Below, one piece after another: positions 465-35,054 of a DNA stretch of 43,742 nucleotides. Under the pieces are notes generated by a model. That model was not told the origin of the DNA. It searched no databases and saw nothing but the letters and a program-made list of their open reading frames with translations. The stretch is taken from contig JAJPZH010000286.1 of the NCBI GenBank assembly GCA_021204515.1, forward strand, positions 1 to 43,742, written 5' to 3'. Within the stretch, counting starts at the first letter, position 1. Every line of letters begins with the position of its first letter. Both the position numbers and the translations under genes were made by a program. This stretch comes from Alistipes sp. GTDB taxonomy: Bacteria > Bacteroidota > Bacteroidia > Bacteroidales > Rikenellaceae.

Positions 465-501
465 AAAGAAGAGTGCAACAATCTATATTGCGCTCTTCTT
501 T
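465..501 (-). terminator. hairpin that probably was the original terminator of tRNA-Ser
   Basis: Positions 465-478 (AAAGAAGAGTGCAA) pair with 488-501 with one G-T wobble. Read on the minus strand the stem is followed by a T-rich run (461-467). It directly abuts the left 17-bp repeat. In an uninterrupted chromosome it would lie immediately 3' of tRNA-Ser(UGA), now 34.5 kb away. I infer it is the ancestral tRNA terminator displaced by island insertion. Confidence 0.65.
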
Positions 502-515
502 GGCGGAAAGAGAGG
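499..515 (+). repeat. left attachment site (attL) of the island, 17-bp direct repeat
   Basis: TTTGGCGGAAAGAGAGG at 499-515 is identical, in the same orientation, to 35038-35054, where it forms the last 15 bases of tRNA-Ser(UGA) including the encoded CCA plus two bases beyond. Identity stops on both sides. A tRNA 3'-end fragment far from its tRNA, with an integrase gene beside the intact tRNA, is the usual footprint of tyrosine-recombinase integration. Confidence 0.8.
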
Positions 516-1262
516 AACTTTCGTTCGACAGAGAACAGGCCACCGTTACCGTTGTGCCGACAGAATATCTCGCGCTGGCAGCATCCTCATGGGATGTTAT
601 TACCGATGACGCATGGATCACCGTGTCGAAGAACGGCAATGATTCTTTTGCCGCAACTGTTTCCAAAAATACGACTGGCTCTTTGCGCACCGGCACGATC
701 AATTTGAAATCGGCCGACGATCAGGTACTATTTTCGTTCCTTGTCAGCCAGAAAATTTACAGTTACGAATTTTTCCTCGGAACTTGGACGATGAATTATG
801 GCTCTGGCCAGACTGTTCAGGTGACATTGGCGCAAGCCCCTGAAAATACATCAGGTTATCTCATGACGGGATTGAGGTAGGGTATATATCGGATATGAAG
901 ATCGGGACGAAACCGCTGTTCTTTCTATAACATGTCCGCAATTTATCGGAACTGTCAATTATACGACTTCCAGCAGTAGGGGAACAGCAAATCTACATCT
1001 TCTTCCAACGACGACCTCGGCAACCAGCTTCAACACTTCGGAAGGAATCGGCTGTGATTGCGTTTACAATCCGGATGAAACAGCCCAGACATTGATTTCA
1101 CAGGCGAATGCGGCATTAGTGACATGCTCAAACTCCGCCTTTCAAACAACCTATTACAAGATGCGAAAAATTTTCGGGATGGGTAAATCACATTTGCCGG
1201 CCGACTTTGCCAACAATAAAAAAACTTTAATTAATTTGGTTTTTTTTCGGAGAATGATTTAA
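503..1262 (+). pseudogene. frameshifted, 5'-truncated BACON-domain protein
   Basis: From about 512 the frame encodes a BACON module (LSFDREQATVTVVPTEYLAL, then a WDVITDDAWITVSK core). It continues to 880 and stops at TAG. Homologous-looking coding continues in two other frames: DGIEVGYIS in the frame of 865, then from about 894 a long stretch including YEDRDETAVLSITCP, FIGTVNYTTSSSRGT and GIGCDCVYNPDETAQ, ending at TAA 1260-1262. So at least two frameshifts split the gene. No signal peptide or start exists upstream: the coding starts inside the attachment repeat and the preceding bases belong to the tRNA terminator hairpin. BACON domains typically sit in Bacteroidetes surface lipoproteins that bind glycans or mucin. 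Function here is lost. Confidence 0.7.
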
Positions 1263-1267
1263 TTTTG
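1235..1267 (+). promoter_or_regulatory. predicted Bacteroidetes promoter for the phosphoesterase-SusCD operon
   Basis: TTTG at 1235-1238, a 21-base spacer and TAATTTTG at 1260-1267 fit the Bacteroidetes -33/-7 consensus TTTG-N19-21-TAnnTTTG. It would leave a leader of about 235 bases before the ATG at 1509. The stretch 1268-1508 has no other gene. It overlaps the end of the BACON pseudogene, so the pairing could be fortuitous. Confidence 0.45.
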
Positions 1268-1508
1268 AAACACAGACGAAATACAATCGAAACAAAGACA
1301 CACTAATTTCGAAACGTTTTTAATGAGAAACGAGATGAACCGGATTAGATACTAATATAAATTATAAATCGGAAAACAAGTCGGACGACAAGGGCGTAGT
1401 TGCAAATACGCAGCGAATTCCGCAGTTATCCTACTGCACAGACCCAAACATCCGACGGAAATAACGATTCCATCTGACACGGTATATCGACAAAAACAAG
1501 GTTTCAAA

Positions 1509-3482
1509 ATGAAAAATGTTAAAAACTACTTATTGATCGTGCTCGCAGTTGTTCTGCAATTGTACGCATGCGGTAACGGAAACGACGATCCGACCCCGAC
1601 CGATAGCTTCGACGTACAGTTCGTACTTCCCTCATCGATCGACGTTTCCGAAGGCGGCGAATACACCTTTTCCGTAATAGGGGGGGGGCCGCCGCTAACT
1701 ACTGACCAATTCATCCTCGAGTCGGCCGCCGGCATCTCCTACGTCTGCAAGATCGTCGACTCCTCGGCGGAGAGTTTTACCGTCCGCCTTGCCAGCGAGT
1801 GTGTAACCGGCTACTACAATGTCTTCATCAAACGAGACACTCGCAAAAAATCATTCGGAAAACTTTATATCAACATCGTCGACGAGTTACCCGACTTCAC
1901 TCCCGACGAAAATACCACGGTTTACGGCATCGTCGCTACGGATGAAGGCGGCGTGGCCGGCGTCGTCGTATCCGACGGCGAAGATGTGACCGTAACCGAC
2001 GAACGCGGCATCTATCAGCTCAAATCGAAAAAGAAATGGGGCTACGTTTTCATTTCGGTTCCGAGCGGCTACGAGGTTCCCTCGGCAGGAGTTCTTCCCC
2101 TGTTCCACGACGATCTGAAAAGCGACGCCGGAACCATTGAACGGGTGGATTTCGCGCTCGAAAAGCTGACCGGCAGCCAAGAGACCTACAAGGTCTTCAT
2201 GCTCGGCGACATGCACTTGGCCAACCGCACGGGAGACCTCTCGCAGTTCCGCAACTTCACCTCCGACCTGACCGACTATATGTCCGTTCACTCCGGAGAA
2301 TTGATGTACGCTATCGCCCTCGGCGATATGACGTGGGATCTTTATTGGTATTCAAGGAATTTCTCGTTCCCCGAATACCTGAAAAATGTCAACGAGCAGA
2401 TCAAGGGCCTGCAAATCTTCCACACCATGGGTAACCATGATAACGATTACAAGACCACGTCGGATTTTGCTGCTGCGCTTCCTTATGTCAATAATATCGC
2501 ACCAACCTATTATTCTTTCAACATCGGCAAAGTCCACTATATCGTACTGGACGACATCGATTGCAGCAACTACGACGGAACCGATTCGCGGGACTACGAA
2601 AAACGCATCTCGGACGAACAGTTGAGCTGGTTGCAGAAAGACCTCGCCTATGTGGACAAGGCAACGCCTCTCGTCGTTGCAACGCATGCACAACTCTTCT
2701 ATCCCCTGACAACTAACATATTTAAGATCGATCACGATACGGCCAACACCCAACGGTTGTTCGACATCCTGAACGGTTACAAGGTGCACTTTGTCACAGG
2801 CCACACACACATGATGTTCAACGTCACGCCTGAGGACGCCGCTTCGCTCTCGGGCAACCGCGATTTCTACGAGCACAACTCCGGTTCGATCTGCGGCTCA
2901 TGGTGGTGGTCGGGTTACCTCACTCCGGGTATCAACCTCGGGCAAGACGGTACGCCGGGCGGATATGCTGTTTGGGATATCACCGGTACTGAGTTCAAAT
3001 ATTTCTATAAGGCTACCGGCTATCCCGAGGATTACCAGTTCCGCAGCTACGATTTGAACGAAGTGGCGTTCTCGACCGCCGACATCCCCGATTGTCCCGC
3101 TTCTGTCCGGAGCGAATTCCAGAAATACATCGAGGCTTATCCGGAAAGCAACAAAAACGAGGTGCTGATCAACATCTGGAACTGGAACCGAAACTGGACA
3201 TTGACCGTCATCGACGAGAACGGCAAGGAACTCGAATGGAAGCATACGAACGCCTACGACCCGCTCCATATCGCCGCCCTCACGGTACCTCGGTTCAACG
3301 ATTCGGGACTTAGCTCGGCGCCCAGCTTTATCACCATTAGTTTCTCCCATTTCTTCATGGTGACAGCCGACAACGCAGATGCGGACCTCACGATCACCGT
3401 CAGGGACGAATTCGGACACGAGTGGACCGAAAACATGCAACGTCCGAAAGTATTTTCGACCGATGCCTACAAGAACAAATGA
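1509..3482 (+). CDS. calcineurin-like metallophosphoesterase lipoprotein
   Basis: This 657-residue protein probably hydrolyses phosphate mono- or diesters at the cell surface or in the periplasm. The signal peptide ends in a lipobox-like LYAC with Cys21. An N-terminal beta-rich region (about 40-225) holds a MetallophosN-like segment around VYGIVATDEGGVAGVVVSDG. The catalytic metallophosphatase domain covers about 228-440 with all canonical metal ligands: GDMH (D234, H236), GD (D273), GNHD (N309, H310), H393 and GHTH (H432, H434). A C-terminal domain (about 480-657) matches the MetallophosC type. This three-part layout is common in Bacteroidetes. It is first in an operon, with susC starting 54 bases downstream. 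A run of nine G (1680-1688) lies early in the coding region. The substrate is unknown. Confidence 0.88.
   Translation: MKNVKNYLLIVLAVVLQLYACGNGNDDPTPTDSFDVQFVLPSSIDVSEGGEYTFSVIGGGPPLTTDQFILESAAGISYVCKIVDSSAESFTVRLASECVTGYYNVFIKRDTRKKSFGKLYINIVDELPDFTPDENTTVYGIVATDEGGVAGVVVSDGEDVTVTDERGIYQLKSKKKWGYVFISVPSGYEVPSAGVLPLFHDDLKSDAGTIERVDFALEKLTGSQETYKVFMLGDMHLANRTGDLSQFRNFTSDLTDYMSVHSGELMYAIALGDMTWDLYWYSRNFSFPEYLKNVNEQIKGLQIFHTMGNHDNDYKTTSDFAAALPYVNNIAPTYYSFNIGKVHYIVLDDIDCSNYDGTDSRDYEKRISDEQLSWLQKDLAYVDKATPLVVATHAQLFYPLTTNIFKIDHDTANTQRLFDILNGYKVHFVTGHTHMMFNVTPEDAASLSGNRDFYEHNSGSICGSWWWSGYLTPGINLGQDGTPGGYAVWDITGTEFKYFYKATGYPEDYQFRSYDLNEVAFSTADIPDCPASVRSEFQKYIEAYPESNKNEVLINIWNWNRNWTLTVIDENGKELEWKHTNAYDPLHIAALTVPRFNDSGLSSAPSFITISFSHFFMVTADNADADLTITVRDEFGHEWTENMQRPKVFSTDAYKNK
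1680..1688 (+). repeat. nine-base G homopolymer inside coding sequence
   Basis: Nine consecutive G at codons 58-60 of the phosphoesterase (SVIGGGPPLT). With nine G the frame is open to the end, and a one-base change would truncate the protein. Poly-G tracts of this length are known slippage sites. Confidence 0.8.
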
Positions 3483-3536
3483 TCTGTTGTCAGCAGATCA
3501 TTCCATATCCCTTTACTAACCACAAACACTAATCTT

Positions 3537-6500
3537 ATGAGAGTATTCAGACCATTGGTTCTGTCTCTGTTACTGATCGTCTGGGGTGGAATTTTCACCC
3601 TAGCCGCCCAGAACAGGACGGTATCCGGAAAAGTCCTCGACGCCAAGCAGCAGCCCCTAGTGGGCGTTGCCGTGTTGGTCGAAGGTACGACCAAGGGTGT
3701 CACGACTGCCGAAAACGGCAGTTTTACAGTTGAAGTCGCGCAAGGAGAGGTCGTGCTGAACGTTTCCTGCCTAGGTTACATTTCCCAAAAGGCGACAGTC
3801 CCCGCCAGTCAGGAGAACATCACCGTCTATTTGCAGGAAGATGCCATCATGCTCGACGAAGCGGTCGTCATCGGTTACGGCACGCAAAAGCGCGTCAACC
3901 TGACCGGTGCCATAGCCACCGTGGGCAGCAAGGACCTCGAGAACCGCGTTGCCCATTCACTGACCAACATGCTGCAGGGTTCGGTGGCGGGTCTCAACAT
4001 CACGACCTCGTCGGGTAAGCCCGGCAGCTCGCCTGAGATCAACGTGCGTGGCGTAACATCGATCAACGGTGCCGACCCGCTCGTGCTGATCGACGGAGCC
4101 GTTGGCGACCTGAACCGTGTCAACCCCAACGACGTGGAGTCGATCTCCGTCATCAAGGATGCCTCGGCCGCTGCCGTCTACGGTGCGCGCGCCGCCTTCG
4201 GCGTTATCCTCGTCACCACCAAGTCCAGCTCGGCCAAGGACGGCAAGGCGACGGTCCGTTACAGCGGCCGCTTCGGATGGGAGGAGCCTACGACATCGAC
4301 CGATTACGAGAACCGCGGCTATTGGTCGGTCTACACGGTCAACAAATTTTGGCAGGCCGACTCGGGCACGAACTACGTCGACTACACCGATTACGACATG
4401 CAGCAACTCCTAGCCCGCGTGAACGACAAGACGGAACATCCCGACCGCCCGTGGGTCGTCGAGGAGGTGCGCAACGGCAAGAAACAGTGGGTCTACTATG
4501 GAAATTACGACTGGTGGGACATGCTCTACCGCCAGAAGCGTCCGGTCCAGCAACACAGCATCTCACTGAGCGGCGGAACGAAGGACATCAAATACATGGT
4601 TTCTGGCGCCTATGACCGTCAAGAGGGCATCCAGCGGGCACATCCCGACGTGTACAACAAATACAACCTGCGTTCGAAAATCGACTTCCAGATCAACCGC
4701 TGGGCGACGCTGTCCAACAATACGTCGTTCTTCAGTTCGAAATACACCTCGCTGGGCGACGGAAGTGTCGACAACACCATCGCCTACAGCGCCCGTCACG
4801 CTCTGGCCTGCTTCCCGATGAAGAATCCCGACGGATCGTGGCTTTACGGCACTCCGTATCTGAACTACAAAGTGGCCAACGGCCGCCATATTATACTCAA
4901 CGAGGGTACGCATCGCAACGTGGATCGCGGGAGCGATTTTTCGAATACTACGCGTCTGGTGATCTCGCCGTTCAAAACGCTGGACATCACCGGAGACTTC
5001 ACCTACCGCCTGTATCAGGAGCGCAACACGAGCCGCAGTTCCGAAATGTACTACCGCGAATACCCCGATGGAGAGTTGCTCTCCTATGCCACCGGAGCCG
5101 GCGAGAATCAACTCGATGAGGAGGTCAAGACCTACAACTATTACTCGACCAACGTCTATGCCAATTACGACGAAACGTTCGGAAATGCTCACCACCTGTC
5201 TGGAACCTTCGGATTCAATTACGAAAAATGGGCCAGCAAGAACGTATCGGCTTGGGGACGCAATCTTTCATCGATCGATTTGGACGACCTGAATCTCGTG
5301 GGCCAAAACGATATGGGCGAAACATTGACCGGTGTCGGTGGCGGCCAAAACGATTACGCACTGGCAGGTTTCTTCGGCCGTATCAACTACGACTACAAAG
5401 GTCGTTATCTGGCTGAAGTCAGCGCCCGTTACGACGGAACCTCGCGCTTCGCCGAAGGACACCGCTGGGGCTGGTTCCCGTCGGCTTCGGTCGGCTGGCG
5501 CATTTCGGAAGAACCGTTCTTCGAACCCGCCCGCAAGGTCGTCGACAACCTGAAACTGCGCGCCTCGTTCGGCAGTCTGGGCAATCAAAACGTATCTTCC
5601 TACTATACTTATATGCGATTGGTTTCGATCAACGATTTCGCTGGCTATACTTTCGGTGAAGGCAGCTCGATGGGCAAGTACTCCTCGCTGGGGGCACCCG
5701 TGGCTTCCGATATGACGTGGGAAACCGCCCAGCAGTGGGACCTCGGACTGGATGTAGCCATGTTCGACAACCGGCTCAACCTGACCGCGGACGTCTACAT
5801 CCGTGACACGAAAGACATGCTGACCGAAGGTATCGCACTTCCTGCCGTTTACGGTGCCGCCTCTCCCGAAATGAACGCCGCCGACCTGCGGACGAAAGGT
5901 TATGAACTTACCATCAACTGGCGCGACCAGTTCCAATTGGCCGGGAAACCGTTCAGTTACAGTCTCGGATTCAACCTAAGCGATTATAAGAGTACGATCA
6001 CCAAGTATAACAACCCGAATAAATCCTTGGCTATGGATTATTACGTCGGTATGGAAATCGGCGAGATATGGGGTTTCGTCACTGACGGATTCTTCAAGAC
6101 CACCGAAGAGGCGCAGGCTTATGCCAAAGAGGTAGATCTGAGCTACGTCAGCTCGCGGCTGACCGGCGGCTGGCAGGCCGGCGACCTCAAGTTCGTCGAC
6201 CTCGACGGCGACGGTGTCTGGGGCATTGGCAACAATACGGTGGACAATCCCGGAGACCGCAAGATTCTGGGCAATTCACTGCCTACGCTCTCCTATGGTA
6301 TCAACGCCAGCGTACAATGGTACGGATTCGACGTTTCTGTCTTTTTCCAAGGAACCGGTAACCACTATTGGTATCCTACCGGACAGACGATGCCTTTTTG
6401 GGGATGCTACTCCTATCCCTATTTGAGTTTCCTGCCGAAGGACTTCATCGGCAAGGTGTGGGCCGAGGACAATACCGACTCCTACTTCCCGCGGGCCCGC

Positions 6501-6806
6501 GCCTACTCCGCGACGGGAGGTTATTTGTCGGTGGTAAATGACCGCTACCTGCAAAACATCCGCTACCTGCGTCTGAAGAACCTCACTGTCGGTTACACGA
6601 TTCCACCGACCCTCACGAAAAAGGCCGGTATCGACCAAGTCCGCATTTATTTCTCCGGAGAGAACCTCTGCTACTGGTCACCGCTCAAGAAAAACTCCAA
6701 ATACATCGATCCCGAAGCAGCCCTGAATCGGAGTTCTGATGTCAACAACAACGCTTACTACCCGTGGGCCAGAACGTTCATGTTCGGTATCGACCTCACT
6801 TTCTAA
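3537..6806 (+). CDS. SusC-type TonB-dependent outer-membrane transporter
   Basis: A 1089-residue SusC/RagA transporter of normal length. Signal peptide about 1-24 (MRVFRPLVLSLLLIVWGG...AQ), CarboxypepD-like/DUF4480 domain about 27-112 (VSGKVLDAKQQPLVGVAVLV), a TonB-box-type segment (LDEAVVIGYGTQKR), plug domain about 115-230 with NPNDVESISVIKDASAAAVY, then a 22-strand barrel ending in the aromatic FMFGIDLTF. It imports ligand across the outer membrane using TonB-ExbBD energy and forms a lidded complex with the SusD encoded 18 bases downstream. It lies 54 bases after the phosphoesterase gene, so the four genes 1509-10166 should be one transcript. No extra sensing STN domain is visible. Confidence 0.95.
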   Translation: MRVFRPLVLSLLLIVWGGIFTLAAQNRTVSGKVLDAKQQPLVGVAVLVEGTTKGVTTAENGSFTVEVAQGEVVLNVSCLGYISQKATVPASQENITVYLQEDAIMLDEAVVIGYGTQKRVNLTGAIATVGSKDLENRVAHSLTNMLQGSVAGLNITTSSGKPGSSPEINVRGVTSINGADPLVLIDGAVGDLNRVNPNDVESISVIKDASAAAVYGARAAFGVILVTTKSSSAKDGKATVRYSGRFGWEEPTTSTDYENRGYWSVYTVNKFWQADSGTNYVDYTDYDMQQLLARVNDKTEHPDRPWVVEEVRNGKKQWVYYGNYDWWDMLYRQKRPVQQHSISLSGGTKDIKYMVSGAYDRQEGIQRAHPDVYNKYNLRSKIDFQINRWATLSNNTSFFSSKYTSLGDGSVDNTIAYSARHALACFPMKNPDGSWLYGTPYLNYKVANGRHIILNEGTHRNVDRGSDFSNTTRLVISPFKTLDITGDFTYRLYQERNTSRSSEMYYREYPDGELLSYATGAGENQLDEEVKTYNYYSTNVYANYDETFGNAHHLSGTFGFNYEKWASKNVSAWGRNLSSIDLDDLNLVGQNDMGETLTGVGGGQNDYALAGFFGRINYDYKGRYLAEVSARYDGTSRFAEGHRWGWFPSASVGWRISEEPFFEPARKVVDNLKLRASFGSLGNQNVSSYYTYMRLVSINDFAGYTFGEGSSMGKYSSLGAPVASDMTWETAQQWDLGLDVAMFDNRLNLTADVYIRDTKDMLTEGIALPAVYGAASPEMNAADLRTKGYELTINWRDQFQLAGKPFSYSLGFNLSDYKSTITKYNNPNKSLAMDYYVGMEIGEIWGFVTDGFFKTTEEAQAYAKEVDLSYVSSRLTGGWQAGDLKFVDLDGDGVWGIGNNTVDNPGDRKILGNSLPTLSYGINASVQWYGFDVSVFFQGTGNHYWYPTGQTMPFWGCYSYPYLSFLPKDFIGKVWAEDNTDSYFPRARAYSATGGYLSVVNDRYLQNIRYLRLKNLTVGYTIPPTLTKKAGIDQVRIYFSGENLCYWSPLKKNSKYIDPEAALNRSSDVNNNAYYPWARTFMFGIDLTF

Positions 6807-6824
6807 TACTATAAGTTACGACCT

Positions 6825-8618
6825 ATGAAACGATTTATCATATTAACCGTTGTACTGACCGCAGGGTTAACGGGTTGCGACGACCTGCTCGATACGAAAC
6901 CCTTGAGCCAGATTTCACAGACGGATTATTTCAAGAACGAAACCGATCTTCAGTTGTTCAGCAACCCGTTCTACAACAACCTGCTGGACAAGAATCCCTA
7001 CGATGATCAGAGCGATCTGATCGTCTGCCAGACCCTTTCCGACGAAATGCTGGGCGGCAACAAGCGCACCGTTCCCGCATCCGGCGGCGGCTGGACATGG
7101 ACCGACCTGCGCCGTATGAACACGCTGCTGGAATATTCCAGCCAATGTCCGGATGAAGATGTTGTCACCAAATACAACGCTCTGACACGCTTTTTCCGCG
7201 CCTTCTTTTATTTCGAGAAGGTCAAGCGATTCGGGGATGTGCCTTGGTATGATGTACAACTCGGATCGGCCGACGAAGCGCTCTACAAACCACGCGACTC
7301 CCGCGAACTGATCATGACCAAGATGATCGAGGATGTGGATTTCGCCATTAATGAACTGACCTCGGACGTGAGTACCTACCGCGTCAACCGCTGGGCGGCG
7401 CTGGCCCTGAAAGCACAGTTCTGCCTCTACGAAGGTACCTACCGAAAATATCACAATGTCAATCTGGAAGGTCACGACTACGCTTATTATCTGGATCTGG
7501 CGGCAAAAGCCGCTAAGGAGTTGATAGACGACGGTCCCTACAAACTTTATAAGACCGGAAATCCGGAAAAGGACTATCTGACCCTTTTCGCCCAAGAGAA
7601 CGCCAGTCAAGACGAGTACATCCTTGCCATCAAGTTCGATTACGGGCTCGGCATTTACCATAACGCCACGGCATTCACATTGGTGTCGACGCAAGGCCGT
7701 CCGGGCTATACCCGCAAATTTATCAACATGTATCTGATGAAGGACGGTACGGCATTCACCGACCGAACGGATGGATGGCAGGTCATGTCGTTCATCGACG
7801 AGGTGAAAGACCGCGATCCCCGTCTGGCGCAGTCGATTCGCACCCCGGGATATACGCGGATTGGGCAGACCGAAGTACTTGCCCCTGATCTCGGCACCTC
7901 GGTCACAGGCTATCAGCCGATCAAGTTCGTTCAGGACCCTACGGACTCAGGCGGTCAGGTCGACCGCAACGACCGTTCGACTTGCGACATCCCGGTCTAC
8001 CGCTATGCCGAAGTATTGTTGAACTACGCCGAAGCAAAGGCTGAACTCGGAACACTGACACAGGCTGATCTCGACATCTCCGTCAATGAGATCCGCGACC
8101 GTGTCGGCATGCCCGACCTCGACATGACGAAGGCCAATGCCAATCCCGACAGGTATCTATCCTCGGAAGAGTACGGGTTTACCAACGTAAATGACACGAA
8201 TAAAGGCGTTATCCTCGAAATCCGCCGCGAACGGGCAATCGAGTTGATGCAGGAGGGATTCCGTTTCGACGATCTGGTACGCTGGAAGGCCGGGTACTGT
8301 ATTGACCAGCCGATTACCGGTATGTATTTCAAGGGGGCGGATGAATATGACCTTTCCGGCGACGGTAAAACAGATTTGATCCTTTATGCGGAAGGTACTG
8401 CCAAACCCGATGCCGGCACAGGCGTAATGGTTTATCAGATCGGCGAAGGAATTACCTTGTCCGACGGCAATTGGGGATATCTGTCCTACCACAAGAACGT
8501 AGAGCGCACTAAGTTCAACGAGGAGCGCGACTACCTCTATCCTATTCCGACCGATGAACGTTCGCTCAACAAGAACCTGACACAAAATCCGGGATGGGTC
8601 GACGGTCTCGACTATTAG
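6825..8618 (+). CDS. SusD/RagB-type ligand-binding lipoprotein
   Basis: A 597-residue SusD homologue. Signal peptide with lipobox LTGC (Cys18) followed by DDLLDTKPLSQISQ, the usual start of mature SusD proteins. The alpha-helical TPR-like scaffold includes the conserved ALTRFFRAFFYFEKVKRFGD segment at about 125-145. The C-terminal region has the RRERAIELMQEGFRFDDLVR signature and a final YPIPTDERSLNKNLTQNPGW, typical of the family. It acts as the surface lid of the SusC channel. The gene starts 18 bases after susC and 24 bases before the BACON lipoprotein gene, consistent with tight co-transcription. The ligand is unknown. Confidence 0.94.
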   Translation: MKRFIILTVVLTAGLTGCDDLLDTKPLSQISQTDYFKNETDLQLFSNPFYNNLLDKNPYDDQSDLIVCQTLSDEMLGGNKRTVPASGGGWTWTDLRRMNTLLEYSSQCPDEDVVTKYNALTRFFRAFFYFEKVKRFGDVPWYDVQLGSADEALYKPRDSRELIMTKMIEDVDFAINELTSDVSTYRVNRWAALALKAQFCLYEGTYRKYHNVNLEGHDYAYYLDLAAKAAKELIDDGPYKLYKTGNPEKDYLTLFAQENASQDEYILAIKFDYGLGIYHNATAFTLVSTQGRPGYTRKFINMYLMKDGTAFTDRTDGWQVMSFIDEVKDRDPRLAQSIRTPGYTRIGQTEVLAPDLGTSVTGYQPIKFVQDPTDSGGQVDRNDRSTCDIPVYRYAEVLLNYAEAKAELGTLTQADLDISVNEIRDRVGMPDLDMTKANANPDRYLSSEEYGFTNVNDTNKGVILEIRRERAIELMQEGFRFDDLVRWKAGYCIDQPITGMYFKGADEYDLSGDGKTDLILYAEGTAKPDAGTGVMVYQIGEGITLSDGNWGYLSYHKNVERTKFNEERDYLYPIPTDERSLNKNLTQNPGWVDGLDY

Positions 8619-8642
8619 AAAAACAGCTAAAACGATACGACT

Positions 8643-10166: not shown

Positions 10167-10193
10167 TGCTCCATAAGAGCAACCAACTGCCCG

Positions 10194-10236: not shown

Positions 10237-10260
10237 GATATATGATTGTAACTTAAATCC

Positions 10261-11112: not shown

Positions 11113-11115
11113 ATC

Positions 11116-23537: not shown

Positions 23538-23556
23538 AAATATTTTTTACGGTTTG

Positions 23557-25803: not shown

Positions 25804-25838
25804 GAATGGATTTTCTTTGTTATAACCGATCGGTTCCA

Positions 25839-25870
25839 CCCCTGTCCGCTCTAATAAAAACGGACAGGGG
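25839..25870 (-). promoter_or_regulatory. intercistronic hairpin within the catabolic operon
   Basis: CCCCTGTCCG at 25839-25848 pairs perfectly with 25861-25870 around a 12-base loop, between the surface lipoprotein gene and the next gene. It could stabilise the upstream message, act as a partial terminator, or mark an RNA processing site, so that the first gene is expressed more strongly. Confidence 0.55.
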
Positions 25871-25880
25871 CGAACGGAAA

Positions 25881-28319
25881 CTATTCGGACAAGGACCTCA
25901 GTTTGGGATATTCGGTACCCATCTCCCAGACCGTATCGAAATCCCAGTTAGCGTTTGGTTCCGTGAATGTCGCCTGCTGTTTGAGACTCTCGGCAGGAAC
26001 ATTCTTGTACGCAAAGCGCGATCCAGCCGGAACTTCGTCGGAAATATACACATACTGGTTCTGCATCGTCGCTGTACCTTCAGGGGTAAAGCAGTCGCCG
26101 AAAACCACTTTGGTATTCTGTTGCTGAGCAGTGGCTACGAACTGAAAAAGGCCCGAAAAATATCTGGTTCCATTGGCATGCGTAGGTCCTGAAGTCGTCC
26201 CGGTATTGTAGCAGTTTTTCAACAGGATGGGAACGGCGACCGTAGCATTGTATGCGCCGCCGAAAATGCCTGCGCTGTTACAGTTACCGTTCGCATTCGT
26301 TCCTGTGGTCGAACAGTTGCCTCGGTTGTAGCAATCGGTAATCGTTGCCGTATAGGCCAGAGCTCCGTCCACCCTGCCCAAAATACCAGCTGCTGTTCCC
26401 TGTGCCGTGAGCGTGGCATTGTTGAAACAACGCTCTATTTCGGAATCGGCGTTGAACGTATAGCCCAGAATGCCGGCTGCCTGTCCGTTGGCCGACTGGC
26501 TCGTGATGTCCCCCTTATTACTACATTCACGAATGATTACGGCCCCGTTCCCGAGCACAGTGCGTTCTGCACGACCGGCGATACCGGCTGTATGGTGGTG
26601 GCCGAAGATAAGTCCGGTGTTGTGGCAGTTCCGGATGACGACCGGATCCGTATCGACCGACTGTACCAGCGCGACGATGCCGCCCACACCGTTCATGTAG
26701 GCAGTTCCGACAACTCCATTGACTTTGATGGTATTACTGCAATACTCGATGTCGCCCGAGGAATAACCCGCCAGTCCGGCCACATAACACAGCTGGTCGT
26801 TTTTGCCGAGCGAACTCTCCACCAGTCCGTTACCTGCGGTATGGCATGAGAGGATGAGTCCCTTGTTAGAACCAACTAACGCTGCTGCATAATAGTCTCC
26901 GACGACAGACGGGTTTTCCAAGCAAATATTACGCAGTATACCCATTTCGCCGACCTCGGCAAATAGTGCCACATTGCGCATGGTGCGTTGCTCAATCTGC
27001 AGGTTCAGGATTTTGTATTGCTCCGACGTGCGCCCCGTTTGGGGATCGTCGATGTTGCCTTTACCTGCATCATAGGTCCCCGTGAACTCTCCGCGGAAAT
27101 ATTGATTCTTGCTGGCGTCAGTCTCTATGCTTGTACTGACGGGCGTAAACGTATAACCCGCAAAGTCAATGTCGGCGGTCTGACGGAAATTTCCACTCAA
27201 GAAATTACGGATGTTCGATACATGCCGCGGCTTGGTAACAATGAAAGGATCGCTTTCGGTACCTTCACCGCTCTCTGCGTCAAAGAAATTATGGTCGCTA
27301 ACGATATTGCTGAAAAGCTCCAGCGGTTCGGTTTCGCCATCCTTAAAGTCGAGATACGCTTCCAACTGACAGAAGACCTTACCCACATAGCCATAAGTGT
27401 CGATCCATTTCACTGCAGCAAGGTTGTAGGACATCTCCTGATTGGGCGACTGTTGGATCTCGATAACGTCGATCTGTTCCGCAGTCTCGGCTTCGCCTTT
27501 ACGCAGAATAAGCCGATATCCGTCCGCACCGACAATCGTCGGCCATGAAAGTTTGAACTCTTCGTCGTTATGCAGTGTGATGACGGGTGTGGCGAGTGTC
27601 TCGCGTTGCTCGATATCGAGCGGAAAGACCGTACCGCTCGTCGTGGAAGTAAAGTTAAAACTTCCATGCCGCACGTCGCCTGTTTTATTAATATCAGCCT
27701 TAATATAATAGGTGACGGTGCCTTCGCCCACTTCGGGATTCGCCCCCTCGTATTGATCGTCAAGTTCGAGCCATTCCGCTTGCTGCTGGGTTAGTTTGTC
27801 GGTAAGTGTGGCGTCGAACGCTTTGACGTTAGTCGTCAACACGAGTTTCTGGGTTCCCGCGCCAACGCCATAGACCAGCTTCTCGGTATCGAATCTGACA
27901 TACGGTTCAGCGGCCTGCTGTGTAACGTCGATGTCAAAGGCCTCCTGCCATCCCTCTACCGTAAACCGCAGAATACCGCTGCGAGGCGTATCGTAGGGAT
28001 TCGTACTGATACGGAGGGAGATCAGTGTGTACCGGCTACCATCCGTAGGAGTAGCGGACATCCATGTCTCATCCAAAGATGCCCCGGGCTGCACTTCGAG
28101 CGTCCACTTTTCATCTTCCTGCACCCGGACCTGGACTTCCGCCTCCTGACTGGGTAACGAAAGTCCCTCGGCAATGAGTTCTTCAATGGTCTTATAAAGT
28201 TTGATTATTTCGGGATCGCCTTTCGGATAAACGATCTCGTTGTCATTACAGCCTCCCGATAATAATAGGAGAGGGCTGCCGATGAGCGTCATCAGCACCC
28301 TGAAAATTGAGCTTTTCAT
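25881..28319 (-). CDS. BACON/GLUG-repeat surface lipoprotein
   Basis: An 812-residue lipoprotein (lipobox SGGC, Cys24). Two BACON-like modules cover about 50-135 (EDEKWTLEVQPGAS, ILRFTVEGWQEAFDIDVTQQ) and 137-240 (SFNFTSTTSGTVFPLDIEQR). An FN3-like module spans about 245-350 (FKLSWPTIVGADGYRLILRK). From about 360 to the end come repeats of the GLUG type (AALVGSNKGLILSCHT, VAGLAGYSSGDIEYCSN, AGIAGRAERTVLG, AAGILGYTFNADSEIERCFN), which would form a beta-helix. No catalytic residues are evident. It is first in the catabolic operon and divergent from susC, matching a surface glycan-binding protein, with adhesion as an alternative. An intercistronic hairpin follows it. Confidence 0.82.
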   Translation of the reverse strand: MKSSIFRVLMTLIGSPLLLLSGGCNDNEIVYPKGDPEIIKLYKTIEELIAEGLSLPSQEAEVQVRVQEDEKWTLEVQPGASLDETWMSATPTDGSRYTLISLRISTNPYDTPRSGILRFTVEGWQEAFDIDVTQQAAEPYVRFDTEKLVYGVGAGTQKLVLTTNVKAFDATLTDKLTQQQAEWLELDDQYEGANPEVGEGTVTYYIKADINKTGDVRHGSFNFTSTTSGTVFPLDIEQRETLATPVITLHNDEEFKLSWPTIVGADGYRLILRKGEAETAEQIDVIEIQQSPNQEMSYNLAAVKWIDTYGYVGKVFCQLEAYLDFKDGETEPLELFSNIVSDHNFFDAESGEGTESDPFIVTKPRHVSNIRNFLSGNFRQTADIDFAGYTFTPVSTSIETDASKNQYFRGEFTGTYDAGKGNIDDPQTGRTSEQYKILNLQIEQRTMRNVALFAEVGEMGILRNICLENPSVVGDYYAAALVGSNKGLILSCHTAGNGLVESSLGKNDQLCYVAGLAGYSSGDIEYCSNTIKVNGVVGTAYMNGVGGIVALVQSVDTDPVVIRNCHNTGLIFGHHHTAGIAGRAERTVLGNGAVIIRECSNKGDITSQSANGQAAGILGYTFNADSEIERCFNNATLTAQGTAAGILGRVDGALAYTATITDCYNRGNCSTTGTNANGNCNSAGIFGGAYNATVAVPILLKNCYNTGTTSGPTHANGTRYFSGLFQFVATAQQQNTKVVFGDCFTPEGTATMQNQYVYISDEVPAGSRFAYKNVPAESLKQQATFTEPNANWDFDTVWEMGTEYPKLRSLSE

Positions 28320-28634: not shown

Positions 28635-31600
28635 ATGCAAACTATGAAACCAAATTCTACGCTGTATATGACTTTGAAGTTCGCGGCCTCGCTGGTCATC
28701 GTTCTTCTCAGCGTATCTATGCCGGCTGCAGCCCAAAACACGCGCATAATTCAAGGTATGGTGCTGGATGAAAAGGGCGCTCCGATTCTCGGGGCTACGG
28801 TTGCAGTTTCCGGGACGACACAAGGTACATCCACAAATGTGGACGGCCGTTTCGAGTTGAAAATTCCCCAACATACGAAATTCCTGAACGTTTCTTTCGT
28901 GGGGTATGCTTCCAAACGGATCGAGATAGGTTCGGCGAAACAACTTAAGATCACACTCGAACCTGACGCAAAACAGATAGAGGATGTCGTGGTTATTGGC
29001 TACGGAGCCGTGCGCAAAAGCGACCTGACAGGCGCCGTAAGCGTTTTGGATGTAAAAGATAAGACTGAAACCCTGCCCTTTACTTCTATCGACCAATTCA
29101 TGCAAGGTCGTATCGCCGGCGTCAATATCAGCCAGAACAGTGGCGCCCCTGGTGATGGCATGCGCATCCAAATTCGGGGTATTTCCACACTCTCTGGTGA
29201 TACGCAGCCTCTTTATGTCGTGGACGGATTCCCGATCGAAGGTGCATCGGCACGCAGTTCGGGTTCGATCGCCGAACTCAGTTCCCAGCCGGGAATGAAT
29301 CCGCTGGCCTCGATCAACCCCAACGACATTGAATCGATTCAGGTACTGAAAGACGCCTCGGCGACAGCCATCTACGGTTCACGTGCGACAAACGGTGTAG
29401 TGCTAATCACCACCAAACAGGGACGGGAAGGTTCCGTGAGAATCAATTACAATTTCCGAGGGGATGTTTCTGTTGTATCGAAAAAATATGATTTGCTGAA
29501 CGGATATGAGTATGCACTTTATCAGAATGCCCTTGATCGTGTTTGGGACGGTTTGGACATGTATGGAAATCCCAATCCGACAGAACGGGTAGAACGGCAC
29601 TCCCCGGAAGCACTCGAACGTTATAAAACGATCGGAACGGATTGGCAGGACCTGATGTATGAAACGGCATTCTCTCAAGATCATAACATTTCGTTCACTG
29701 GAGGCAACAAAACATCGCAGTTCAGTATCAGCGGCGGCTATACCGACCAGAAAGGCATTATTATGAATACGGGGTTGGAACGTTACACCTTCCGTATGAA
29801 TTATCTTTACAACATCAACTCCCGGTTAAAATTGACCGCCAATGCCAATTATACGAATCTGAAACAGTCGCAGACCTCTCATTCGCAGAATGGTAGCGAA
29901 GTACAGATGATCCGTCGTATTTTAACCATGCGTCCTAACTTAACTCCGTTTGATGTCGTTTATGAAGAAGATACATTCGAAGGAATCGTTGTGGACAATC
30001 CCTATACGATGGCTACAAAATTAAAGGACGATTTTCTCGAGCAGACATTACAAGCCAACCTTGCTTTGAACTACAATATCGGCAAAGGTTTCGGAGCCAA
30101 GGTAGCCGGTAGCTTAGTATCCGTATTCGGGCAGCGCAAGACCTACTATCCTTATGATACGTCCGCCGGTGAAACATACAACGGTATGGCTTTTCGAGGC
30201 GACAACAAACGATTGAATTACACTTTTGAAGCGCAGCTCAATTATAACCGAACCTTTAATAAAGCCCATCGGCTGAATGGCGTCCTCGTATGGGAGTATT
30301 CTTCCCGGCAGACGGATAATTTGCAGATTCAGGCCGGAGACTTCCCTGATGACAACCTGTCGTATAATAACATCGGTCAGGGACTCACCACTACGAACAA
30401 AAATAGCAATATCATGAATATCCTGCTATCGTCATTCGTTGCACGATTCAACTACAGCTACAAAGACCGTTATATTTTCACCGTTACGGGCCGCTATGAC
30501 GGATCATCTCTGCTGTCGGAAGGCAACCAATGGAAGTTCTTTCCGTCTGCGGCCGTAGCATGGAATATCGATCAGGAACAGTTTTTAAAGAGTGCCGATT
30601 TCATCTCAAAATTGCGTATCCGCGGCAGCTTCGGTATGACCGGCAATCAGAATATCGCTTACGGCGCGCCCCGAATGATTATGAACCAAGTACGTACGGC
30701 TAATAACGGTTCCTCCCCGACACACGGTTACGTACCCGGAAATCCTGAAAACCCCGATCTCGGTTGGGAGAACACCAAAGCATACAATCTCGGTCTGGAG
30801 ATGGGCTTTGTCAAAAACCGCTATCGCTTAAACATAGATATTTATAAACGTGTCACTTCTGACCTGTTGTTCAATTTTCCGCTGCCTCCTTCGTCGGGTC
30901 ATGGAAGCATTCCCGTGAATATGGGACAGATCTCGAACAAGGGTATCGAAATCGAGGTCGGAGCCGATATCATTTCCCGACGCAAGTTCAGCTGGAGTGT
31001 CGGAGCCAACTGGTATATGAACCGGAATATGGTCGATGATATCAGGAATAACGTAATCGAAGGCGTAACTTATCTGTCGGGCGGTTCTGCGCTGGGCCAG
31101 AGTATCCATCGTACGATGGCAGGTTATCCGATCGGCAGCTTCTACGGTTATGTGACGAACGGCATTTACCAGACGCCCGAGGAAGCCGCCAAAGCACCGG
31201 CCGATACGCCTGCCGCCGTTCCCGGCTCGATCCGTTATCTGGATATCAGCGGCCCAGACGGATTGCCCGACGGCAAAATCGATTCGAACGACCGCACGAT
31301 ATTGGGTTCCTCTCAACCCGATTTCAACTACGGAATCTCAACCGACTTGAAATGAAAAAATTTGTCACTAAGCATCCTCATTAACGGCAGCGTAGGCGGC
31401 AAAATCGCGAACCTGAACCGTTATCTATTGGATGCGTTCGATGACAAACAGACCAATGTACGTCGTGAGGCATGGGAAGGACGTTGGCAAGGTCCCGGAA
31501 CAAGTAATTTTTATCCGGCACTTAACGGAGCTTACAAAGACGCATTTTTTCAATCCCGCTTCTCGACCATGTTCCTCGAAGATGCAACGTATATCCGTCT

Positions 31601-31820
31601 GAAAAATGTTACACTGAGCTATGCATTTGCACTGAAGAAGATCCCTTGGATCAAACGCATCTCTGTATTCGTAACAGGAACCAACCTGCTGACATTCACC
31701 GATTATTCGGGTTACGATCCCGAAGTGAGCATTTCACGCAGCGCACTCAGTCCCAATGTGGATTACGCGGCCTATCCCTCCGTCCGCACCGTTTCATTCG
31801 GTGTCAATCTGGAATTCTAA
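28635..31820 (+). pseudogene. SusC-type TonB-dependent transporter interrupted by one in-frame TGA
   Basis: The full reading frame would give a 1061-residue SusC: signal peptide (about 1-33), CarboxypepD-like domain (IIQGMVLDEKGAPILGATVA), TonB-box-type IEDVVVIGYGAVRKS, plug with NPNDIESIQVLKDASATAIYGS, and a barrel ending RTVSFGVNLEF. At codon 907 (31353-31355) a TGA interrupts GISTDLK-stop-KNLSLSILING, where homologues typically have Trp (TGG). Before and after, the frame is the same, so a single G to A change explains it. Truncation would remove the last 155 residues, including several strands and the C-terminal targeting signal. A Met at 28644 is an alternative start. susD follows 12 bases after the final stop. 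A sequencing error is possible. Confidence 0.88.
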
Positions 31821-31832
31821 CCGTTAAGCAGT

Positions 31833-33539
31833 ATGATTATGAAAAAACAAATATCTAAATTGTTTGTTGCAGCCGGCATCGTCGCCATGGCAACATCGTG
31901 TATCGACGACGATATGATTGATCGGGTCGATTTCCGGAATTATTATAAGACCGAGACCGATGCACAAACTGCCATTAATGGCGTATACAGCACACTTTAT
32001 TCATTCGATTACCACAAATGGAGCTGGGTCATTGCACATCCTTGTTTCGAGGATTGCATGTATGCTACGGGTGGTGCGGCCAATCAGCTATCCATGAATG
32101 CTATCGGAGGAAATACAAGTGACCTGACCAATCCTTGGACGGCTCTGTATGGTGCTATCAATGCAGCGAATGCCGTAATCCGCTATGTGCCGGAGATTGA
32201 GTTCAAGAATGAGAATGACCGTAACCGGATTATTGCAGAAGCCCATTTCCTGCGTGGATTCTATTATTATGACTTGGTGCGACTATATGCGGGTAAAAGC
32301 GGTATTCCTCTTCATACGGAACCCGTAGAAGATATGTCGAATGTTTATCATCAAGATACGGCGGCCAAACATGTCTACAACTTGATTATCGACGATTTCA
32401 AATATGCCGCGGGGAAAAATCCCGACGGATCGTTGCGACTTCCTCTCTACAAAAACCTGCAGGCCGAGGCGGGACGGGTTACAAACGGCGCAGCATACGC
32501 TTATTTGGCCGACGTGCACAATACACTTGGAGAGTGGGACCTTGCCGTGAAATATGCCGATACCGTAATTCGTTCCAACCAGTATAAACTGATTCAAAAT
32601 TATGCGGACCTTTGGGATATCAACCTTGAGGCCGCTGCCAATGATGAGAAAATATTCTATGTCCCGTTTTATCAGGATAAGGAAGCAGCGCAAAGGACTT
32701 CATTGGGGACGGCTGTCACATTTCTTTACAACCCATCGGGGGTGAATCTCGACGGTACGGCGCTGAGCGGCAATCCTCAGATGAAGGGTCAGGGATTCAA
32801 TCGTGTTCAGAAATGGTTCATACGTTTTTTCCACGACGATATGGAAAATTTAGGTTACAGCGATGGCACGAAGTCGAACGCAGATGCCGATTTGATTTAC
32901 AAGGATTACCGAATCGAAACAACTTGGTGGCGTAACTTTAAGTCCCGTAATAATACGACCGGGGTTTTAGGAGACAAGTCAGCTTATCCTGCAAGCGGAG
33001 GAGCACATGACGATTGGGGTTACATCCGTAAATACATTGATCCGAACGGTGTCAATAACTGGACGAACGGTAACGATTATGTCCGCATGCGTTTTGCAGA
33101 TATGTACCTGATACAGGCCGAAGCCTATAACGAATTGGGCGAATATGAAAAAGCATGTGAGGCAATAGATAAAATCCGCGAACGGGCACGCCATGCTGAC
33201 GGACAAGAACGCCAATGGCCAAAATTCCTCAGTCAAACACGGGAAGACAATATTGGGCGCACATTATCGAAAGATGAATTCCGCTGGCTTGTTTTCATGG
33301 AACGTGGATTGGAATTCGCCGGAGAAAATCGCCGTTTCTTCGATCTGAAAAGGATGCGCAAGGATGATAATACCATGATGTATGACTATATGATGAATAC
33401 CTATATCCCTAATATGGCAGCTAAATATCCGGCATTCGTGAATTCCACGACAGTACTTGCAGAACGCAAGAAATGGTGGCCCAAGCCCTTTACTGAAGTT
33501 GATAGAAATCCCGGAGTCCAGCAAAATCCAGGATATTAA
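31833..33539 (+). CDS. SusD/RagB-type ligand-binding lipoprotein
   Basis: A 568-residue SusD homologue with lipobox ATSC (Cys23; Met at 31839 is an alternative start). Family landmarks include TETDAQTAINGVYSTLYSFD, AEAHFLRGFYYYDLVRLYAG (about 130-150), MRFADMYLIQAEAYNELGEY and the C-terminal RWLVFMERGLEFAGENRRFF. The extreme C-terminus WWPKPFTEVDRNPGVQQNPG is also typical. It would form the surface lid over the product of the preceding susC gene. Because that gene carries a nonsense codon, this intact SusD may lack its channel unless the stop is suppressed or an artefact. It differs substantially from the other SusD of the window, so the ligands should differ. Confidence 0.94.
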   Translation: MIMKKQISKLFVAAGIVAMATSCIDDDMIDRVDFRNYYKTETDAQTAINGVYSTLYSFDYHKWSWVIAHPCFEDCMYATGGAANQLSMNAIGGNTSDLTNPWTALYGAINAANAVIRYVPEIEFKNENDRNRIIAEAHFLRGFYYYDLVRLYAGKSGIPLHTEPVEDMSNVYHQDTAAKHVYNLIIDDFKYAAGKNPDGSLRLPLYKNLQAEAGRVTNGAAYAYLADVHNTLGEWDLAVKYADTVIRSNQYKLIQNYADLWDINLEAAANDEKIFYVPFYQDKEAAQRTSLGTAVTFLYNPSGVNLDGTALSGNPQMKGQGFNRVQKWFIRFFHDDMENLGYSDGTKSNADADLIYKDYRIETTWWRNFKSRNNTTGVLGDKSAYPASGGAHDDWGYIRKYIDPNGVNNWTNGNDYVRMRFADMYLIQAEAYNELGEYEKACEAIDKIRERARHADGQERQWPKFLSQTREDNIGRTLSKDEFRWLVFMERGLEFAGENRRFFDLKRMRKDDNTMMYDYMMNTYIPNMAAKYPAFVNSTTVLAERKKWWPKPFTEVDRNPGVQQNPGY

Positions 33540-33571
33540 TTATCACATGTTATAAAAAGGCTGAATTTAAA

Positions 33572-33611
33572 CTGCACCCTAAAAGTTAAACACAAAACTT
33601 TTAGGGTGCAG
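33572..33611 (+). terminator. perfect 16-bp hairpin after susD
   Basis: CTGCACCCTAAAAGTT at 33572-33587 pairs perfectly with 33596-33611 around an 8-base loop, 32 bases after the susD stop. It can terminate the susCD transcript. The unusual length and perfection also resemble abutted inverted ends of an IS, so this alternative is kept open. Nothing recognisable lies from 33612 to 33675. Confidence 0.6.
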
Positions 33612-33675
33612 ACTTTATGAATTGGTTTGAATAGATATCGGATATATAGCGTCTGATCGCCGCGCAGCGAGAACG

Positions 33676-34801
33676 TCAGCTCCCGGAATGCATTTCGGGG
33701 AAACGCAGGTCCGGGCACCATGAAGCGTCCGCAGGCCGTCGAGTCTGAAACGTCGAAAGGAGTTTGCGAATGCCGCATACATCGGCCAACTCCTTCAAAT
33801 AAACATTCATCTTTTGATTACTGCACACAGGCAATAATACACCATGCATTTGACAATAGTTATTGTCGCGGTAACGGGATAAAATCTCCTGCGCTGCATC
33901 TATTATCGGGATATTACACATACTTCCGGTTTTCTAGCGCGGCTTACGAATCCAATTCACACCATTTATGTCTACCGCAATATGTTCCGGCCGAAGTTGT
34001 TTCACCTCTGAAAATGCTAGTCCTGTCAGGCAACAAAACGCGAAAACGTCCCGTATCTGCGACAATCGGGGAATGTCGATCTGCTTATCAAGCAGTTTTT
34101 TTTCAGCTCGGACTTATCAAGAAAATCACGTTCCACCTGCTCTTTATGAAATTGAATTCCAAGATAGGGATCTGTCTTCAACCACCCTTTCGTCATGGCG
34201 ATACGGGTTATCTTTTTCAGATTCTTGAGATATTGAATCGTCGTATTATGGCTGCATTTCCGCTCGGTCTTCAAAAAGAACTCGTAATCTTCGATGAACT
34301 GACGGGACATTTCATCCAAATAAATATCCTCCCGATGATAGGTACATTGCAGAAACTGTATGATCAATTTACGGCAGGTTTCATAACGTACCACCGTTGC
34401 AGGAGCAATGTCTATCCTCGATAGTTTTTTTCTGTTTTTCATTATGTTCTACAAATACCTCACAGTGTATGACGTTCGGGAGTGTTTTTCCCCAAGTAGC
34501 GATCAAGAATAGCATGAGCGGATAACTCCAAACCTTCCAATTCGATATCACGCTGAATACGAAAAATATTAGCGGAAATAGCATCCAGATAGAGGTTCAG
34601 GTCTTTTCCTCCACGTCCGTTTTCAACGGCTTTACCTTTAGCCTGATTCCATAGTCGAGGAGAAATGAAGCGTTTAACAGAAGCATCGGCACGTTGACCA
34701 TTCACTGTGATACGCATAAAAATCGGAGCTTCGCCCGCTTTGTTCAGCTTGGTTCTGCGGATATAAAACAGCAGACCGAAAGTAGTCCTTTCCATAGACA
34801 C
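33676..34801 (-). pseudogene. tyrosine recombinase (integrase) of the island, multiply broken
   Basis: On the minus strand ATG 34801 opens the arm-binding N-domain (TTFGLLFYIRRTKLNKAGEA, RFISPRLWNQAKGKAVENGR) until a frameshift near 34460. A core-binding domain follows (PATVVRYETCRKLIIQFLQC, FIEDYEFFLKTERKCSHNT) after another shift in an A run near 34425. A third shift lies in an eight-A run near 34105. The catalytic domain then reads QIRDVFAFCCLTGLAFSEVK, hits a TAG after IRKPR near 33945, and resumes KTGSMCNIPIIDAAQEIL to about 33720. The HxxR and Tyr motifs of the C-terminus are not recognisable. Gene position beside tRNA-Ser identifies it as the enzyme that integrated the island. Confidence 0.85.
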
Positions 34802-34814
34802 TAATTTAAGGTTA

Positions 34815-34846
34815 CAAAATTAACTTTCTAAGTGTCTTTTGTCAAG
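34815..34846 (-). promoter_or_regulatory. possible promoter of the integrase gene
   Basis: On the minus strand TAATTTTG (34822 to 34815) fits TAnnTTTG, with CTTG (34846 to 34843) 20 bases upstream as a weak -33 element. Transcription would start only a few bases before the ATG at 34801. Confidence 0.35.
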
Positions 34847-34893
34847 AAGTAAAACACTGCAATTATATGTAAATCAAGAAAATTACAGCCAAA

Positions 34894-34930
34894 TCGGTGT
34901 ACTTTTTTTAGCCATATTTAGGTACACCGA
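34894..34930. repeat. 9-bp inverted repeat between integrase and attachment site
   Basis: TCGGTGTAC at 34894-34902 is complementary to 34922-34930 with a 19-base spacer. Its place between int and attR is where integrase arm sites or excisionase sites usually lie. A folded RNA is another option. Confidence 0.35.
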
Positions 34931-34986
34931 ATAGGCCACAAGTAATATGCCTAAAATTGCATTTTTTTGTATCCGGCCAAAAACAA

Positions 34987-35018
34987 AATACGCTGTAAAT
35001 TTATATTTACAGCGTATT
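34987..35018 (-). terminator. hairpin at the right island end, now downstream of tRNA-Ser
   Basis: AATACGCTGTAAAT at 34987-35000 pairs perfectly with 35005-35018 around TTAT. It sits 22 bases beyond the tRNA 3' end on the minus strand and would replace the ancestral terminator now stranded at 465-501. Confidence 0.65.
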
Positions 35019-35037
35019 GCATTTTTACTCGTAGTCT

Positions 35038-35054
35038 TTTGGCGGAAAGAGAGG
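35038..35054 (-). repeat. right attachment site (attR) overlapping tRNA-Ser
   Basis: The 17 bases TTTGGCGGAAAGAGAGG are identical to 499-515 in the same orientation. Fifteen of them are the tRNA 3' end (T-arm edge, acceptor strand and CCA), the usual core site for tRNA-targeting integrases. Confidence 0.8.

Follow-up and report, generated by a model that had tools for sequence, protein, structure and literature searches.

The stretch analysed here, referred to as the window, is the entire contig C158 (43,742 bases) of a draft Alistipes sp. genome (G000; 295 contigs, 3,539,295 bases). Most of it is occupied by a 34.5-kb genomic island, which was very probably inserted by tyrosine-integrase recombination between the attP site of an element and the 3' end of a tRNA-Ser(UGA) gene. 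The island with attachment repeats at tRNA-Ser, as outlined in an original prediction made from this DNA, is confirmed as real and not a product of chance. We infer the integration event itself, the roles of two hairpins at its ends and its former status as an integrative mobilizable element (IME). Genus genomes (n = 180, including the window's own) are cited with G numbers, their contigs with C numbers and fetched loci with L numbers.

The attachment repeat and tRNA-Ser(UGA)

The island is bounded by a 17-bp direct repeat without assigned strand, attL at 499..515 and attR at 35038..35054, identical over all 17 bp by exact repeat comparison. As originally predicted, one copy is the 3' end of a tRNA: attR overlaps tRNA-Ser(UGA) at 35040..35127 (reverse strand), which both ARAGORN and Rfam call, giving the arrangement expected of a tRNA island. 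The core 14-mer of the repeat, GGCGGAAAGAGAGG, occurs twice in the 3.54-Mb genome, both times inside the window and at the two island ends; the reversed pattern as a control occurs 0 times in this genome and once in all 180 genomes. Allowing up to three mismatches, the window contains no third copy of the core. We regard the repeat as real because it is exact, because its 14-mer is unique to the island ends within the genome and because only 0.15 sites would be expected by chance at three mismatches, compared with the two found.

Across the genus, the 14-mer is present in 14 of the 180 genomes at 17 places, and a tRNA-Ser was nearby at all six places where tRNAs were checked. In G161 (L188:1501-1514), an extra copy of a tRNA-Ser 3' end with its own hairpin, as seen by eye, lies about 0.2 kb from the tRNA and may have been left behind by an element that has since disappeared.

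An integrase pseudogene of a tRNA-targeting family

The tRNA-side end of the island contains a tyrosine integrase pseudogene (33739..34795, reverse strand), which had already been noticed in the original prediction and which we delineated with Pfam and by comparison with an intact relative. Pfam identifies the Arm domain (Arm-DNA-bind_5) at 34460-34801 and a SAM-like domain at 34026-34442. Relative to the intact 405-residue protein, the integrase is distributed over three frames and interrupted by an in-frame stop; the match stops at residue 352, so that the catalytic C-terminus has been lost. Judged from its sequence, the integrase gene is dead. The island lacks the working integrase of a mobilizable element; the adjacent integrase of a tRNA-targeting family, typical of tRNA islands, is present as a pseudogene, with 245 bp separating its start from the tRNA (34795 to 35040). 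Where the gene breaks off, 120 bp (window 33638-33757) are 97.5% identical to contig C4 of G158, far above the flank identities (best 84%).

DNA of the integrase region matches 29 of the 180 genus genomes including its own, some by short pieces only. We judged 21 integrase loci (20 fetched loci and L065) for a tRNA neighbour, and the integrase match lies beside a tRNA 3' end in 17 of them, one in the window's own genome. The tRNAs are Ser-GGA (4), Ser-GCT (5), Ser-CGA (2), Ser-UGA (3), Ala (2) and Asp (1), and integrases of the family are found at tRNA-Ser(UGA) in G049, G189 and G175. Of the remaining four loci, L094 is a tandem arrangement, L104 and L110 are contig ends, and the 120-bp match of L112 is unrelated. 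For named genomes, we used a seven-sequence alignment as the query and took the best 80 of 152 relatives (80 loci, 528 kb), 77 of which had enough upstream sequence for the tRNA test. In 53 of these 77, the integrase start is separated from a tRNA 3' end by 238-306 bp (median 252), and six further tRNAs occur elsewhere in the 80 loci. The integrase family is spread across Bacteroidota and uses several tRNAs.

A second integrase remnant of the same family lies beside tRNA-Ser(GCT) in the window's own genome (L107:9337-9807, C154 of G000). In G189, element right ends of almost the same sequence occur at two distinct tRNA-Ser genes (L105 on C10 and L093 on C20); therefore, one integrase lineage is able to use several isoacceptors. 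A contig labelled Lachnospiraceae (L217) encodes a 68%-identical integrase and is probably a mis-binned Bacteroidota contig.

A probable displaced tRNA terminator

A hairpin with a T-run (465..501, reverse strand) abuts the left repeat and, on the basis of folding and the left-end layout of sibling elements, would be the displaced native terminator of tRNA-Ser. The predicted fold of -18.6 kcal/mol (z -3.9) agrees with the terminator-like hairpin described earlier. Its T-run lies on the tRNA strand, and if joined to the tRNA, the hairpin would follow directly after CCA. We compared 34 tRNA-Ser(UGA) trailers (30 from the genus, including the present trailer of the window, and 4 from other families), in which a hairpin begins 4-22 nt past the called tRNA end in 25 cases and 1 nt after CCA in three (L176, L183, L184); these three show that a near-zero gap, as at 465-501, does occur. 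Of nine genus genomes inspected around tRNA-Ser(UGA), eight have a strong hairpin within 60 nt behind the tRNA (weak in G044), and the genes beyond it vary among the genomes.

Among the four sibling left ends, those of G195, G172 and G170 have a clear stem and T-run no more than 60 nt from the outer edge of the core; G169 has no hairpin within this distance and a weaker one further out. The fold scores of G195 and G172 are modest (z -2.5 and -1.7, relative to simple shuffles), and the stem of G170 resembles the right end of another element. Integration at the tRNA-Ser 3' end with displacement of the native terminator to 465-501 is well supported, and this part of the earlier interpretation stands. 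The proposed chromosome before insertion, tRNA-Ser followed by 465-501, draws support from the sibling hairpins and the trailer precedent, while the corresponding empty site was not found, as detailed below. In G005, G146 and G066 (L184, L183 and L176), an inverted copy of the tRNA-Ser(UGA) 3' end, exact in G005, lies just past the terminator hairpin, producing a tRNA-end/hairpin/tRNA-end layout.

A hairpin apparently carried by the integrase family

Another hairpin (34979..35026, reverse strand) lies between the tRNA and the integrase gene. Folding and covariation across trailers suggest that it is element-borne and probably a replacement terminator. Across 44 aligned trailers, 96.3% of the stem cells are paired and double changes occur at 11 of the 14 pairs. 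When the pairs are slid, no more than 61.5% of the cells remain paired, and among 500 shuffles none reached the covariation score and one reached the count of 11 pairs, although these controls lean in the hairpin's favour, the structure having been derived from the same alignment of related sequences. The 44 trailers were chosen from integrase-side tRNAs, and two of them (L221, L292) depart from the pattern. At 34979-35026 of the window, Rfam gives no family above threshold.

The same type of hairpin is found behind Ser, Ala, Asp, His, Arg and Glu tRNAs where an integrase of the family is present. In L001-L212 together with the window, a set drawn mostly from the genus, the motif is found at 12 of 15 tRNAs with an adjoining integrase start, at the single tRNA with an arm site only (1/1) and at 1 of 50 with neither. 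The hairpin therefore seems to belong to the element and not to the tRNA, since it stands behind many tRNAs with an integrase and is rare without one. A cruder count gives 31 of 38 versus 9 of 58, eight of the nine being repeat fetches of occupied places. Among the named loci, the motif is found at 19 of 23 tRNAs with a recognised integrase start, 1 of 1 with an arm site only and 20 of 24 with neither, a split that is uninformative because all of these loci were fetched by their integrase. We rejected the hairpin at 34979-35026 as the native terminator, because hairpins of its type accompany the integrase family at tRNAs of several kinds.

The simplest role of this hairpin is probably that of a replacement terminator, and a role in recombination may be the alternative. 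Recombination inside the 14-17-bp core would leave tRNA-Ser(UGA) intact, shift the native terminator (465-501) to the far side of the island and place the element-borne hairpin (34979-35026) behind the tRNA, where it would probably end the tRNA transcript and shield the co-directional integrase gene. We lean slightly towards a wider proposal, in which a Bacteroidota-wide tRNA integrase family carries a conserved, covarying hairpin directly within the tRNA-side end of its elements; this hairpin would replace the displaced terminator and keep transcription of the tRNA from running into the co-directional integrase gene.

Cargo and mobility remnants

We scanned 20 open reading frames (ORFs) of the island with Pfam at an E-value of 0.001; the assignments below rest on Pfam unless stated otherwise. 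Locus 1 (1509-10166) lies on the forward strand and comprises a calcineurin-like phosphoesterase (1509..3482), the SusC-type TonB receptor 1 (3537..6806), the SusD-type protein 1 (6825..8618) and a BACON-domain protein (8643..10166), which ends a conserved 8.6-kb block. Locus 2 (12356-33539) starts with a sulfatase on the forward strand (12356..14422). On the reverse strand, it continues with a hybrid two-component regulator (14478..18536), an enzyme of glycoside hydrolase family 2 (GH2; 18639..20945, Pfam and NCBIfam), a sulfatase (20961..22442, Pfam and NCBIfam), a GH43 enzyme (22458..23537), a GH127/GH76-like protein (23557..25839; weak Pfam match, no NCBIfam match) and a BACON-domain protein (25881..28319). 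The SusC-type receptor 2 (28635..31820) and the SusD-type protein 2 (31833..33539) follow on the forward strand. An in-frame TGA near 31353 divides SusC2 into parts of 906 and 152 residues, the shorter of which gives no Pfam match when scanned by itself. Both loci thus have neighbouring SusC and SusD genes, with SusC2 broken; carbohydrate-active enzymes (GH2, GH43 and the sulfatases) are found in locus 2 only, and the Pfam scan revealed no glycoside hydrolase in locus 1.

The 8.6-kb block of locus 1 recurs in its entirety, with 71-75% identity, in 5 of the 179 other genus genomes, and in G166 it lies about 1 kb from a tRNA-Ser. We rejected a position of locus 1 inside the sibling island of G172, because in that genome the block lies outside the island, to the chromosomal side of its attL. 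For locus 2, the 179 other genus genomes contain nothing close to a full-length match, the best one covering 332 bp.

Between the two loci lie a C-terminal fragment of a MobB relaxase (10261..11067, reverse strand) and insertion-sequence (IS) remnants (11144..12141, reverse strand; Pfam/NCBIfam). The relaxase fragment matches positions 139-419 of the 420-position profile NF041325 (2.2e-75, 254 bits, with a cut-off of 400). The IS remnants consist of an rve fragment (11144-11467) and a further ORF (11749-12141) with no Pfam or NCBIfam match. A relative of the MobB protein (59% identity) is next to an integrase of the family in Alistipes sp. Marseille-P5061, and relatives of 47% identity lie 20-30 kb from family integrases in P. 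sartorii and P. vulgatus; none was found in Marinilabilia and in one further P5061 stretch. Among the 20 ORFs scanned, there is no Pfam match to conjugation (type IV secretion) genes, and the island is therefore at most mobilizable. It is probably a former integrative mobilizable element whose relaxase, integrase and left arm would have decayed; autonomous movement is no longer possible.

The guanine-cytosine (GC) content of the island is 0.41-0.54, compared with 0.57-0.59 in the right flank and a host baseline of 0.578 +/- 0.044, taken from 39 pieces of 13 out of 20 stretches (the seven stretches below 5 kb were left out). It falls along the island, from 0.53-0.54 in locus 1 through 0.50-0.52 in the middle and 0.47 in locus 2 to 0.41 at the integrase end. 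By tetranucleotide correlation, 12.4-33.5 kb ranks at the 3rd-8th percentile of the host, locus 1 at the 10th and 33rd and the right flank at the 23rd-26th. The composition is unlike that of the host, clearly for 12-35 kb and weakly for locus 1.

The island is a mosaic of two loci, a relaxase fragment and IS remnants with an abnormal left end. The original prediction of two complete Sus-type loci does not hold in view of the in-frame stop in SusC2 and the lack of a glycoside hydrolase in locus 1, and delivery of both loci in a single event is not supported, given the relaxase fragment within the mosaic and the abnormal left end.

Element ends and chromosomal flank

The end anatomy of the siblings was read by eye. 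Their right ends show the order tRNA, hairpin, inverted GGTGTAC/GTACACC repeat and integrase, and the right end of the island holds all of these parts, including the inverted GGTGTAC...GTACACC repeat (34891..34941, no strand assigned), a possible integrase arm site whose right part recurs in sibling left ends. The left ends of G195, G172, G169 and G170 consist of the core, about 70 bp and then the arm site ACACCGAATAGGCCACAA. Their core ends 14 nt after its GGC/GGT start, and the window core has the same end point. Immediately behind attL, the window carries the remnant of a BACON-domain gene (516..1232, forward strand), its 5' end cut at the repeat and its frame broken near 880; a full relative of the gene is on contig C2 of G162. 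The sibling of G195, with both ends visible, spans 10.3 kb between 16-bp repeats at tRNA-Ser(GCT), and its integrase frame is also broken; a second two-ended sibling, at tRNA-Asp, has 8.0 kb and a 22-bp repeat. For several siblings, the search for a left-end repeat of 12 bases or more had no result, and the same holds for the P. vulgatus, P. sartorii and Marinilabilia elements within 39-59 kb.

The chromosomal left flank contains the C-terminal tail of a DEAD-box helicase (128 residues; 2..388, forward strand), named by inspection and without a Pfam match, and a strong hairpin (397..425, no strand assigned; -25.7 kcal/mol), the probable terminator of the helicase gene. The likely N-terminal part of the helicase is at the end of contig C256, beside FabI- and CydAB-like genes (by inspection). 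C256 and C158 are unjoined in the assembly, and the sequences suggest that the helicase tail likely continues into C256. The tail has matches in five other genomes, and in the four examined the helicase is 78-79% identical to the C256 part; further helicase paralogues exist in the window's own genome. In two of the nine genus stretches, those of G051 and G049, this tRNA has FabI and CydAB on the corresponding side at distances of 2.8 and 11.7 kb; in G043, the helicase is near CydAB. The gene order partly supports this left flank.

Alternative histories of the island

Several observations weigh against a simple insertion at tRNA-Ser(UGA). The empty site was sought in vain: the exact empty-junction pattern has 0 matches in the genome contigs, and window 1-500 compared with 41 genomes finds only its own genome and one 24-bp match (G019). 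The link between C256 and C158 is drawn from a split gene, and the helicase orthologue is elsewhere in G049, G051 and G054. Among the testable named loci, 24 of 77 have no tRNA within 350 bp of the integrase. The composition of locus 1 is nearly host-like. MobB, separated from attL by about 10 kb and from the integrase by about 23 kb, may have arrived in an event of its own. Finally, the arm sequence of the siblings matches the window at the right end only, and the left arm site is missing; because of this absence and because the island begins inside a BACON gene, the left border may have been rearranged. The BACON gene at the left core would reflect later damage or tandem accretion.

The lack of an empty site would suit a set of ordinary chromosomal genes with a coincidental 17-bp repeat. 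We consider this extremely improbable, as it is contradicted by the uniqueness of the 14-mer, with only two copies in 3.54 Mb, taken with the 53 of 77 integrase loci beside a tRNA, and further by the fit of the hairpin, the 17 of 21 fetched loci with the same habit and the foreign composition. The odd left border is compatible with two variants of the insertion. Two or more elements could have accumulated successively at the same tRNA-Ser, with an internal att site lost and the borders derived from different elements. The left core without the sibling left arm, the stepwise GC content, the occurrence of locus 1 as an intact block in other genomes and the Mob and IS remnants between the blocks all point in this direction, and G050 provides a precedent with a family integrase, a core, an NBU2-like element and a tRNA-Ser in a row; against it, no third core copy is left in the window at up to three mismatches, and we regard tandem accretion as tentative, if quite possible. 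A deletion after a normal single integration might instead have removed the left arm and fused the left core to the BACON gene. The BACON homology starts immediately behind the core in a gene without its 5' part, and the end point of the core is identical to that of the siblings, yet we know of no copy with an undeleted left end, and this course of events appears possible but rather doubtful. Integrase-mediated insertion of an element at the tRNA-Ser(UGA) 3' end is the reading we retain.

Relation to known elements

As a tRNA-Ser island with Sus cargo, the island belongs to an already known kind; in the published literature, covered mostly outside subscription papers, we found no description naming it. 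Our reference for comparison with NBU2 is the integrase of an element that we take to be NBU2-like from its cargo, with ORFs presumably for an integrase and for primase-like, mobilization-like, MFS-type and nucleotidyltransferase-like proteins (partly by inspection). The island falls outside the NBU2 group, having no IntN2-type integrase, because the identity between the NBU2-like integrase and the present family is only 24-33%. NBU2-like elements are at tRNA-Ser(UGA) in G044 (L070) and at tRNA-Ser(CGA) in G050 (L094 and L114), where the element follows an integrase of the present family in a tandem arrangement. NBU1 is smaller than the island and is not known to carry Sus loci. In P. vulgatus ATCC 8482, presumably the same strain as DSM 1447, tRNA-Ser(UGA) (NC_009614.1:2710261-2710346) lies beside an integrase of the present family.

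NBU2 attaches at the tRNA-Ser 3' end (PMC5704250), and one of its two sites in P. vulgatus is placed at BVU_2094, nt 2,710,348 (PMC8816746). By position, the P. vulgatus tRNA-Ser(UGA) beside the family integrase is the NBU2 attachment gene BVU_2094. The island likewise docks at a tRNA-Ser 3' end, and the docking gene is common to the family and NBU2; the island differs in its Sus-type cargo, relaxase fragment and dead integrase. NBU1 and other Bacteroidota IMEs are described as combining a tyrosine integrase, a tRNA 3' end and a MobP-type relaxase, NBU1 using tRNA-Leu (PMC5704250). The island shares the tyrosine integrase and the tRNA 3' end with them, at tRNA-Ser in contrast to the tRNA-Leu of NBU1. 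Polysaccharide utilization loci for porphyran, agarose and carrageenan reside on integrative conjugative elements in gut Bacteroides (PMC8845570). Sus-type mobile cargo is common to these elements and the island, whereas the island has no conjugation match among the ORFs scanned.

tRNA islands are a known route of bacterial gene gain, and the present case has unusually clear edges. It is a clean, readable example of genes for outer-membrane nutrient uptake kept in a tRNA island, here in a relative of Alistipes, and the displaced terminator can apparently still be seen. The shared docking gene ties the integrase family to NBU2, whose integrase drives Bacteroides vectors. The family hairpin offers a testable explanation for the survival of tRNA genes after insertion; if true, such a "terminator swap" would allow elements to use tRNA genes without disturbing them.

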